Below, one piece after another: positions 7,696 to 25,198 of a stretch of DNA of 43,875 nucleotides. The notes under the pieces were generated by a model that saw nothing but the letters and a program-made list of their open reading frames with translations, was not told the DNA's origin and did no database searches. The stretch spans positions 1 through 43,875 of the forward strand of contig CAISHQ010000021.1 of the NCBI GenBank assembly GCA_903885195.1, written 5' to 3'. Within the stretch, counting starts at the first letter, position 1, and every line of letters begins with the position of its first letter. The DNA is from an uncultured Pseudomonadota bacterium. GTDB taxonomy: Bacteria > Pseudomonadota > Gammaproteobacteria > Steroidobacterales > Steroidobacteraceae. The position numbers and the translations under genes are program-made.

Positions 7696-7772
<77 letters not shown>

Positions 7773-7888: not shown

Positions 7889-10606
7889 ATGCGCCTTCGC
7901 ACCACCCTACTCGCCTTCGCACTGACGCTCGTAGCCATGCCAATTGGCGCGGCCGAGGCCACACCCCCCACTGCGGCTACGACCCCTACTGCCGCAGCGC
8001 AGCTGACGCCGCTGCAGGCCAAGGCTCGTGAAATCTTTAAAAAGGTCGTGAGTTTCAGGAGTATCGCGCCCGGCTACGAGACGCCCCAGCTGGCCGAGTA
8101 CCTCGCGGGCGAATTCCGCGCCGCAGGGTTTGCCGAGGAAGACATCCTGCTCGAGCGCCACGAGGAAACCGCCTATCTGCTCGTGCGCTACCGAGGGCGC
8201 ACCCCGGCCAACGAGCCAGCACGAAAACCCGTCCTTCTGCTCTCGCACCTCGATGTGGTGCCGGCGCTCAAGGAACATTGGAAACGCGATCCATTCCGAC
8301 TCGAAGAGGCCAATGGGTTCTTCTATGGTCGTGGCACGCTCGATGTCAAAAACGGCGTAGCAACGCTCACCGCGCTGCTGCTGCGCCTCAAGCAGGAGAA
8401 GTTCGTACCGACCCGCGATCTGGTGCTGGTGCTGAGCGGTGATGAAGAGACGACCGGCGCGACCACCCGGCATTTACTAGAGAAGCATCGCGACTGGGTC
8501 GATGCCGAATACGCTCTCAATACCGATGCCGGCGGCGGCACGCTCGATCGCGAAGGCCGGGCCCGCTCGTACAACATCCAGACCGCCGAGAAGACCTATG
8601 CGAGTTACAAGTTGAGCGCCTACAACCCGGGCGGCCACAGCTCGCAACCCCGTGCCGATAATGCGATCTATGAACTGACCGATGCACTGAAGGCCGTGCA
8701 GGCCTATCGATTCCCTGTGCAGTGGTCCGATACGACGATCGGCTTTTTCAAAGCCACGGGCGCGATCGCCGACGGACCACTCGGCACCGCGATGCGCGCC
8801 TTCGCTGCGGATCCGCGCAACGCCGCAGCGGCCGATGAACTCTGGAAACACCCGGTGTACGTCGGCGCCACCCGTACCACCTGCGTGCCCACCATGCTGC
8901 GCGCCGGCCATGCCGAGAACGCGCTGCCCCAGCAAGCCACCGCCACGGTGAACTGCCGCATCTTCCCAGGCGTCACGCCACAGGCGATCCGCGAGACCCT
9001 GCAAAAGGTCGTCGGCGAGCGCATCGAAATCGAGATCATCGACGATCCACGCTACAGCGATGCCTCACCGCTCAGGGAGGACGTGGTGCAGGCTGTGACG
9101 GCGACCGTCCACGAACGGTACCCCGGCATCCCCATCATCCCGATTCAGGAATCGGGCGCGACGGATGGCCTCTTCTACCGCGCCGCCGGCATTCCGACGT
9201 ACGGCATCAGCGAAACCTTCATCAAGCCGGAGGACCAGTTCGCCCATGGCCTCGATGAGCGGATCCCCGTGCAGTCGTTCTACGCCGGGCTCGATCATTG
9301 GCATCGCATCGTCACGCGTTTGTTCGGGCCGACGCCAATGCTGTCGACCGTGGATTGCGGACGCCTGATCGACGGCCTGACGGACACGGTGCTTCGCAAC
9401 CAACGCCTGCAGATCGACAACGGGCGCATTGTGGCCCTGACCGCAATCGATAACCCCACCGCGGCGAACAGCTCCGCGCAGAGCTCGCAGCACCTCGATC
9501 TTCGCGATCACACCTGTCTTCCGGGGCTACTCGATCTGCATACGCACCTGACGGATCTACCCGAGAACACGGCGGACTTTCGCATCTACCCGCGGCGCAG
9601 TCCGCAGGATCACCTCGCGCTCGCCCGCAAGAACGCGTTGGCCACGTTGCAGGCAGGCTTCACCACCGTACGCGACGTGGGTGCCTACGTCGGAGCACTC
9701 GACAAGGAACTGCGCGATGAGATCGACGCCGGCGTCACGCCGGGCCCGCGCATGCAAGTCTCGATCGGGTACCTGACCATCTCGGGCGGCGGCGGCGACA
9801 TGCTGCTGCCCGGCTTCCCGAAGAGCCAGGCGCTGACGCCCCTGCCCCGCATGCGCCGAGGTGTGGCGAAGGGGCCCGAGCAGTTTGCTGCGCGAGCGAG
9901 CGCCTTCCTCGACGACGGCGCCGACGTGCTGAAGATCATCGCCTCGGGCGCTGTGCTCTCCCCGGGCGGCGTGCCGGGTTCACCCGAGATGACACCCGCC
10001 GAGATTACGGCTGTGACACGTGCCGCTCAATCACGTGGCAAACGCGTGGCCGCCCACGCACACGGCGCCCGATCGGTGAAAGAAGCCATCCTCGCAGGCG
10101 CCAACACCATCGAGCATGCCTCACTGATCGACGAGGAAGGCCTGCGATTGGCCCGCGAGCGCGGCGTTGCGCTGGCGATGGACGTGTACAACGGCGACTA
10201 CATCGATACCGAGGGTCGCCGCCAGGGGTGGCCCGCCGAGTTTCTGCAGAAGAACCTCGACACCACCGAAGCGCAGCGTCAGGCCTTCACGCGCGCCGTG
10301 CAGATCGGCACACCCATCGTATTCGCGACGGACGCAGGGGTGTTTCCGCACGGACTCAATGCGCGGCAATTTCGCATCATGGTGCAACGCGGCATGACAC
10401 CGATGCAGGCCATCCGCTCAGCGACCGGCGTCGCGGCCGAGTATATGGGTTGGTCGGATCGCGTCGGCGCGCTCGCTCCCGGACGCTACGCGGATCTCGT
10501 CGCCGTGCGTGGCGATCCCCTCGCCGACATCACGCTGCTCGAGCGCGTCGATGTGGTGCTGAAGGGCGGCGTACCCGTCAGCCGAGCACCTGCTCGCACA
10601 AACTGA
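7889..10606 (+). CDS. Secreted fusion of M20 metallopeptidase and imidazolonepropionase-like amidohydrolase
   Basis: This single 905-aa frame has a signal peptide (about residues 1-22, ending PIGAAEA). Residues 40-480 form an M20 peptidase with likely two-metal ligands and catalytic residues His120, Asp122, Asp152, Glu186, Glu187, Asp213 and His453. Residues 488-905 form an amidohydrolase with His551 and His553 (DLHTHL), Lys682 (KIIASGA), His723/His725, His743 (IEHAS) and Asp815 (FATDAG), all usual metal ligands. Both active sites look intact. The amidohydrolase half has no signal peptide of its own. Likely periplasmic degradation of peptides or N-acyl amino acids in two steps (inference). 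The 3' end overlaps the nuoN 3' end by 29 bp, tail to tail. Confidence 0.9.
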   Translation: MRLRTTLLAFALTLVAMPIGAAEATPPTAATTPTAAAQLTPLQAKAREIFKKVVSFRSIAPGYETPQLAEYLAGEFRAAGFAEEDILLERHEETAYLLVRYRGRTPANEPARKPVLLLSHLDVVPALKEHWKRDPFRLEEANGFFYGRGTLDVKNGVATLTALLLRLKQEKFVPTRDLVLVLSGDEETTGATTRHLLEKHRDWVDAEYALNTDAGGGTLDREGRARSYNIQTAEKTYASYKLSAYNPGGHSSQPRADNAIYELTDALKAVQAYRFPVQWSDTTIGFFKATGAIADGPLGTAMRAFAADPRNAAAADELWKHPVYVGATRTTCVPTMLRAGHAENALPQQATATVNCRIFPGVTPQAIRETLQKVVGERIEIEIIDDPRYSDASPLREDVVQAVTATVHERYPGIPIIPIQESGATDGLFYRAAGIPTYGISETFIKPEDQFAHGLDERIPVQSFYAGLDHWHRIVTRLFGPTPMLSTVDCGRLIDGLTDTVLRNQRLQIDNGRIVALTAIDNPTAANSSAQSSQHLDLRDHTCLPGLLDLHTHLTDLPENTADFRIYPRRSPQDHLALARKNALATLQAGFTTVRDVGAYVGALDKELRDEIDAGVTPGPRMQVSIGYLTISGGGGDMLLPGFPKSQALTPLPRMRRGVAKGPEQFAARASAFLDDGADVLKIIASGAVLSPGGVPGSPEMTPAEITAVTRAAQSRGKRVAAHAHGARSVKEAILAGANTIEHASLIDEEGLRLARERGVALAMDVYNGDYIDTEGRRQGWPAEFLQKNLDTTEAQRQAFTRAVQIGTPIVFATDAGVFPHGLNARQFRIMVQRGMTPMQAIRSATGVAAEYMGWSDRVGALAPGRYADLVAVRGDPLADITLLERVDVVLKGGVPVSRAPARTN

Positions 10607-12020
10607 GCAGGCTCTCGGGAAAGAGGCCCAGCACCAGCACCGCCAGGGCATTCAACCCGAGTGCCAGACGCACCCCCGGATGGGACTCGGTCGGAGGTGC
10701 AGAGGCGTTCGGCGCATCGAAGTACATCAGCTTGACCACGCGCAGGTAGTAGAACACGCCGATCACGGACACCGCCGCAGCAAACACCACGAGCGCCAGA
10801 TGGTTCGAGGCCCAGAGCGCCTCGAAGATCTGCAACTTCGCCCAGAAGCCAACGAAGGGCGGGATGCCGGCCGTCGAGAACATCAACATCATCATCATCA
10901 GCGCAAGCAGCGGGTCACGCGCGTGCAGACCCTTGTAATCATCGAGTTCGTCGGCCTCGAAACCCCGTCGCCCCGCAAGCAGGATCACGCCAAACGAACC
11001 GAGCGTCATGATGACGTAGGTGATTGTGTAGTAGAGCGCCGCCTCGTAGCCCTGCTCCGTCCCGGCGACGAACCCGAGCAGAATGAAGCCCACATTGCCG
11101 ATGGCCGAATAGGCCAGCATGCGCTTGAGATTGGTTTGCGCGATCGCGATGACGTTACCGAGCAGCGCCGAGAGTACGGCCAGAATCGCGAGCATCTGGG
11201 CCCAGGTGTCGACGATGTTACCGAGGCCACCCGCCAACAACCGGAACGCGAGTGCGAACGAGGCGATCTTGGGTGCCGTGGCGACGAACAGGGTCACGGC
11301 GGATGGCGCACCGTGGTACACGTCCGGCACCCACATATGGAACGGCACCGCACCGAACTTGAAGGCGATGCCGACGACGACGAACACCACGCCCATGATG
11401 AGCCCGAGTGAAGGCTCACCCTGCAACGACACGGCAAGCTCGGAGAAGAGCAAGGTTCCGCTGAGTCCATACACCAGCGACATGCCGTAGAGCAGACAGC
11501 CCGAAGCGATGGCACCCAGCACGAAGTACTTCATCGCCGACTCCGCGGCGACCCCCGAGTCCCGATCGGTCGCTACCAGCGCATACAGCGACAGGGCCAG
11601 CAGCTCGATACCCATGTACATGGTCAACAGGCTGCCCGCCGAGATCATCACGAAGATGCCGAGCACGGCGCTCAGCACGAGCACGTAGTACTCGCCTTTG
11701 GCCAGCTCGCGCGCTTCGAGGTAGTGCCGCGAATACAGCAGTGCCACGGCCACGAACAGGAAACACAATAGTTTCAGCAGCGTGCCGAGCGGATCGGCGA
11801 TGTACATCCCGGAGAAGAGCTCCACCGGTGCGCTCACCTGCGCGTAGGCCAGCGTCAGCGCCGCACCGACTCCAAGCGTGATCAGCGTGAGGGTCGGCGT
11901 GATGCGCGCAGCGGCCTTGCCCGCGAACACATCGACCAACAACACCACGCAGATCGCCGCTGCAAGGTAGATCTCAGGCAGTGCCGGTGCGAGCGAGGCG
12001 AGAGTGAAAGTCGGTGTCAT
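10578..12020 (-). CDS. nuoN: NADH-quinone oxidoreductase subunit N
   Basis: This 480-aa antiporter-like membrane subunit of complex I has about 14 transmembrane helices and helps translocate protons across the inner membrane. Conserved features include the proton-channel segment GIELLALSLYALV, AFKFGAVPFHMWVPDVYHGAP with its lysine, and the NLKRMLAYSAIGNVGF region. It is the last gene of the nuo operon, 12 bp after nuoM. Its final 29 bp overlap the end of the convergent M20-amidohydrolase gene, so transcripts from both sides collide or share sequence. No hairpin-plus-U terminator is visible at this junction. Confidence 0.97.
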   Translation of the reverse strand: MTPTFTLASLAPALPEIYLAAAICVVLLVDVFAGKAAARITPTLTLITLGVGAALTLAYAQVSAPVELFSGMYIADPLGTLLKLLCFLFVAVALLYSRHYLEARELAKGEYYVLVLSAVLGIFVMISAGSLLTMYMGIELLALSLYALVATDRDSGVAAESAMKYFVLGAIASGCLLYGMSLVYGLSGTLLFSELAVSLQGEPSLGLIMGVVFVVVGIAFKFGAVPFHMWVPDVYHGAPSAVTLFVATAPKIASFALAFRLLAGGLGNIVDTWAQMLAILAVLSALLGNVIAIAQTNLKRMLAYSAIGNVGFILLGFVAGTEQGYEAALYYTITYVIMTLGSFGVILLAGRRGFEADELDDYKGLHARDPLLALMMMMLMFSTAGIPPFVGFWAKLQIFEALWASNHLALVVFAAAVSVIGVFYYLRVVKLMYFDAPNASAPPTESHPGVRLALGLNALAVLVLGLFPESLLSLCEQVLG

Positions 12021-25113: not shown

Positions 25114-25198
25114 TGGTGCGGTCGGGGAGACTCGAACTCCCACGCCTTTCGGCGCTAGCCCCTCAAGCTAGTGTGTCTACCAATTCCACCACGACCGC
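25114..25198 (-). tRNA. tRNA-Leu (anticodon GAG)
   Basis: The 85-nt gene includes an encoded CCA. Acceptor GCGGTCG pairs fully with CGACCGC and the discriminator is A. The anticodon arm CTAGC-TTGAGGG-GCTAG gives anticodon GAG, reading CUC/CUU. A class II variable arm (GCGCCGAAAGGCGT region) and the T arm GGGAG-TTCGAGT-CTCCC are present. It lies 25 bp behind secG, the same place as leuU of E. coli, and is probably processed from the secG transcript. Confidence 0.97.

Follow-up and report, generated by a model that had tools for sequence, protein, structure and literature searches.

The amidohydrolase Cc2672 of Caulobacter is an L-Lys/L-Arg carboxypeptidase (PDB 3mtw) of MEROPS family M38 in the amidohydrolase superfamily, and it hydrolyses L-Xaa-L-Arg/Lys (PMC11342369). 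According to a review of the L-aminoacylases, nearly all of these enzymes belong to either M20 or M38, with Cc2672 listed under M38 (PMC11511702).

In the window analyzed here, the whole 43,875-nucleotide stretch of contig CAISHQ010000021.1 from an uncultured member of the Steroidobacteraceae, a single gene joins an M20 metallohydrolase to a Cc2672-like amidohydrolase. The fusion is real and confined to one lineage, and it combines two well-known enzyme families in a new domain architecture without amounting to a new kind of system; no paper describing this fusion was found in the literature. Our favored reading, to which we give a probability of roughly 0.55, is that the two genes truly fused, that the fusion has been conserved in one genus and that its product is a bifunctional exported enzyme, both halves of which would be amide hydrolases acting on substrates with a C-terminal amino acid.

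Organization of the fused gene and its product

The ORF reading of the window gave an ATG start, 905 codons and zero internal stops for positions 7889-10606 of the plus strand. The gene and its parts are:

7889..10606, plus strand: fused M20-amidohydrolase gene, 905 aa (uninterrupted ORF, profile matches, genus-wide homologues)
7889..7957, plus strand: export signal-like N-terminus MRLRTTLLAFALTLVAMPIGAAE, the sole one, predicted to serve both enzymes (sequence, judged by eye)
8003..9325, plus strand: M20 metallohydrolase half, residues ~39-479, including the lid/dimerisation domain at 233-377 (Pfam, NCBIfam NF006596, structure model)
9326..9349, plus strand: linker, residues ~480-487, differing in length and sequence among fused species (junction alignment)
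9350..10588, plus strand: Cc2672-like amidohydrolase half, residues ~488-900, without the signal peptide present in separate relatives (Pfam, PDB 3mtw, junction alignment)

A tRNA-Met gene (CAT; minus strand, 7696-7772) lies directly upstream, and a convergent nuoN-like gene (10578-12020, minus strand) shares 29 bases with the 3' terminus of the fused gene (window 10578-10606). The second tRNA of the window is for Leu (GAG, 25114-25198).

The sequence-only reading had proposed that one frame joins two metal-dependent hydrolases, each with its full set of ligands, and this was borne out for the single 905-codon ORF. Matches to the Pfam families Peptidase_M20 (residues 116-476), M20_dimer (233-377) and Amidohydro_1 (544-895) were each above the curated cut-off; the M20 half scored 99 bits against PF01546 (cut-off 24.6) and 56 against PF07687 (cut-off 21), and, with 566 bits against a cut-off of 349, residues 11-478 matched nearly the whole of NCBIfam NF006596 (PRK09133). 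Members of NF006596 are named 'hypothetical protein', with no function assigned, and the M20 half may be either a peptidase or an N-deacylase. For the amidohydrolase half, the best NCBIfam model was NF051886, the Xaa-Pro dipeptidase of Caulobacter type, at 432 bits, which is below the equivalog cut-off of 500, and the second half was therefore not filed as an Xaa-Pro dipeptidase equivalog.

The two halves were aligned separately in order to count conserved ligands (45 M20 and 50 amidohydrolase sequences). By homology, the M20 metal ligands are H120, D122, D152, E186/E187, D213 and H453, plus H250 in the lid; they comprise the two-metal set (H, D, E, D/E, H) together with the catalytic D and E, and H120, D122, D152, E186, E187, D213 and H453, as well as H250, are invariant among the 45 sequences. 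The ligands of the amidohydrolase half, again by homology, are H551, H553, K682 (likely carboxylated), H723/H725, H743 and D815, corresponding to the HxH, Lys, His, His, Asp set, and all those checked were invariant across the 50 sequences. This set and a TIM-barrel fold identify the half as a Cc2672/M38-like member of the superfamily.

An AlphaFold2 model of the fused protein, computed from an alignment (A1) in which the M20 C-terminus of the single-domain rows was misaligned (FAHGLDE against FPHGLNA), had a mean pLDDT of 91 and a pTM of 0.70, with both domains complete. The halves are predicted to fold confidently, and their placement relative to each other is uncertain at this pTM. Among the structural matches listed, the best for the amidohydrolase half was Cc2672 (3mtw; Z 59.6, rmsd 1.8, 401 residues, 40% identity), with further matches to other arginine carboxypeptidases, dipeptidases and ochratoxin-degrading amidohydrolases. 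The M20 half matched DapE, ArgE and M20 peptidases at Z 31-36, the best of the matches listed being DapE (7uoi, Z 36.4).

In the junction alignment, the fused proteins pass from the usual M20 C-terminus through a short variable linker to the start of a mature amidohydrolase. This agrees with the earlier placement of the junction near residues 482-488, and, as also proposed, no second signal peptide was seen at the junction of the window protein, its one signal-like segment (judged by eye) being at the extreme N-terminus. The internal ATG at 9338, which had been pointed out in the same reading, was rejected as a second start given that no ribosome-binding site is visible and that most fused relatives do not conserve the Met.

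Conservation and distribution of the junction

The genus search identified the same in-frame junction in eight of 24 genomes, the window counted, representing eight species. Full-length fusions were present in G015, G014, G008, G020, G003 and G002, at 78-89% identity to the window protein, and in G004 the fusion was recovered as two contig-end pieces, one of which crosses the junction. The fused genomes are separate assemblies from different samples, and the genus bearing the fusion occurs in lakes and other environments. Two contigs (L016 and L023) that bear the fused gene of this genus come from a MAG (isolate AE-03may19-112) whose label, Klebsiella pneumoniae, looks wrong. Values of dN/dS were 0.03-0.16 for both halves in all computable pairs, reflecting strong purifying selection on each; synonymous distances were often near saturation.

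Since the same junction occurs in the same frame in seven other genomes, chance is excluded. The sequence-only reading had offered, as its alternative to a natural fusion, a stop codon lost between two adjacent genes, and an artefact of this sort, whether a missed stop or an assembly join, is extremely improbable: no support for it was found, and the junction shared by eight genomes, along with the low dN/dS across both halves, excludes assembly error or recent stop loss. Nor were the close relatives uniformly split or marked by an indel, the outcome that was to count against a fusion; one close relative, G021, is split. A search for the full-length fusion in other genomes had been suggested, and seven carry the junction, which upholds the view that two exported metallohydrolases, usually separate and encoded by separate genes in the samples from outside the genus, have fused naturally.

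Outside the genus, a pattern-based scan of samples comprising 217 genomes of the family, 396 of the order, 369 of the class and 298 of the Sphingomonadaceae found no fusion, so that rare fusions may exist elsewhere, and the matches outside the genus in the contig search were separate M20 and amidohydrolase genes. In the sister genus (G056 and G037) both genes are present, unfused and 68-74% identical, the amidohydrolase having its own signal or a lipoprotein-like N-terminus. Within the genus, the fusion was not found in 16 of the 24 genomes, which implies that it is dispensable; in G001 the M20 gene alone was found. Several candidate fusions were rejected: L042, L078 and L080 are tandem pairs in which a Cc2672-like amidohydrolase sits beside a more distant one (31-34% to the query), and in L083 the M20 and amidohydrolase genes are separate and in tandem.

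The split form in G021 and the history of the fusion

In G021, the M20 and amidohydrolase genes stand apart, and exactly at the site of the junction parts of an arn cassette (lipid A aminoarabinose) lie between them. When compared with the fused G014, the match of G021 contig C147 spans the upstream flank and the M20 gene and ends at the last M20 codons, and that of contig C622 begins where the mature amidohydrolase begins and takes in the downstream flank, with an identity of about 84% on either side of the junction. With the arn names assigned by eye from the sequences, the M20 gene is followed by a UDP-glucuronate-decarboxylase-like gene and an ArnT-like gene, and the amidohydrolase gene is preceded by ArnC-, formyltransferase- and ArnD-like genes, its start codon overlapping the arnD stop. 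The two contigs (L142 and L143) are very probably neighbours, based on a homologous continuous cassette in G006 and G019 (L187 and L188) that bridges both contig ends, with roughly 2 kb unseen between them. None of the fused genomes yielded the decarboxylase gene of the cassette. That the G021 amidohydrolase captured its signal peptide from the gene following arnD was rejected, as in G006 and G019 this gene encodes an LptF-like permease whose start differs, judged by eye.

In the rpoB tree, the split G021 is sister to the fused G014 (100/100), which rules out the fused genomes as a single clade and favors a later split in G021; the fusion, with the same junction, is found in three separate branches of the genus. 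The G014+G021 grouping in trees of the fused gene was disfavored by the protein (p-AU 0.0125) and not by the DNA (0.38). The G021 arrangement may thus represent either a fission or the pre-fusion state, a choice that we leave undecided, with rpoB favoring fission and the gene trees not deciding. A more elaborate scenario, which we consider doubtful, has a bifunctional exported exo-amidase that combines two non-homologous metalloenzymes of convergent chemistry in one assembly, with the junction as a site of gene traffic and the fusion possibly re-split by the arn cassette, the second half gaining a new signal peptide.

A small deletion could have joined two adjacent genes, leaving two working enzymes whose joining brings no benefit, as would suit a fusion limited to one genus, missing from two-thirds of its genomes and with its halves separate in the relative G021. 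We regard such a neutral accident as unlikely, however, given that the junction recurs in three separate rpoB branches and has been kept over large synonymous divergence (dS about 1).

Proposed function and comparison with known enzymes

Under the favored reading of a bifunctional exported enzyme, the fused protein would be exported, probably to the periplasm, as suggested by its signal-like N-terminus, and the amidohydrolase half, its own signal peptide missing, would rely on that of the M20 half. The M20 half, with its fold of DapE/ArgE/aminoacylase-1 type, would cleave the amide before the C-terminal L-amino acid of a dipeptide or N-acyl amino acid, and the Cc2672-type half would cleave the same type of bond with a different side-chain preference, likely for basic residues as in Cc2672. 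The halves would accordingly be unrelated enzymes with a similar chemistry, the release of a C-terminal amino acid, and the protein most likely serves as an exported scavenger of dipeptides or N-acyl amino acids with a broadened range. Fusion would widen the substrate range of such a scavenging enzyme and would fix both a 1:1 ratio and the shared export of its two activities. M20 relatives are known as dimers and amidohydrolase relatives as octamers; a large assembly is expected, with M20 domains around an amidohydrolase core.

A shared task is also suggested, independently of the fusion, by gene order in sphingomonads. The M20 and amidohydrolase genes are adjacent and unfused in five sphingomonad genomes (tandem in G619; divergent in G758, G630, G675 and G676) among roughly 40 listing both genes, by a rough hand count, and an S9 peptidase adjoins the pair in two. 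Tandem duplicates of the NF006596-type M20 gene were also observed in sphingomonads (G856:C3:185489-188356, G815:C1:998361-1001203 and G892:C1:80011-82860). Adjacency elsewhere and the fusion itself suggest a joint task, and the S9 neighbours fit a peptide-degrading cluster, all of which would also suit a sequential coupling in which the product of one half feeds the other, for example M20 deacylation followed by dipeptide cleavage by the amidohydrolase. We think this coupling rather improbable, given that close relatives of both halves perform the same single type of amide hydrolysis and that the sequence gives no sign of an order of action. The sequence-only reading had proposed that a fusion would couple two hydrolytic steps, for example at a peptide bond and at an N-acyl or cyclic amide. 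Two parallel, similar activities are likelier than a pathway, because the second half is closest to dipeptidases and carboxypeptidases of the Cc2672 type, not to cyclic amidases.

The genus and its sister genus hold fused, separate and cassette-split forms and so offer a natural test of why enzymes fuse, to which the adjacent but unfused genes of the same two families in sphingomonads add. For NF006596, a widespread subfamily of exported M20 proteins to which no function is assigned, the fusion also provides a functional hint in the form of a shared substrate world.

Among described enzymes, Cc2672 shares its fold with the second half at 40% identity, aligned throughout and with all metal ligands in common, but the amidohydrolase described here makes up the C-terminal half of a larger polypeptide and lacks a signal peptide of its own, and its substrate is a predicted one. 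The arginine carboxypeptidase Sgx9359b (3be7/3dug), the ochratoxin-degrading ADH3 (8ihq) and LlADH have the same fold as the second half, with 33-36% identity where listed; unlike the protein that carries this half, they are single-domain enzymes, and the substrates reported for them differ. The first half resembles the M20A enzymes (DapE, ArgE and aminoacylase-1; NF006596/PRK09133) in its M20 fold, lid domain and ligand set, and differs from them in being fused and, as predicted, exported. The Rv0071/74 deletion fusion of M. tuberculosis (PMC6347829) likewise places a Cc2672-type amidohydrolase under a new N-terminus, there by deletion, but in that case the partner is a short repeat segment, with no second enzyme, and the amidohydrolase is truncated.
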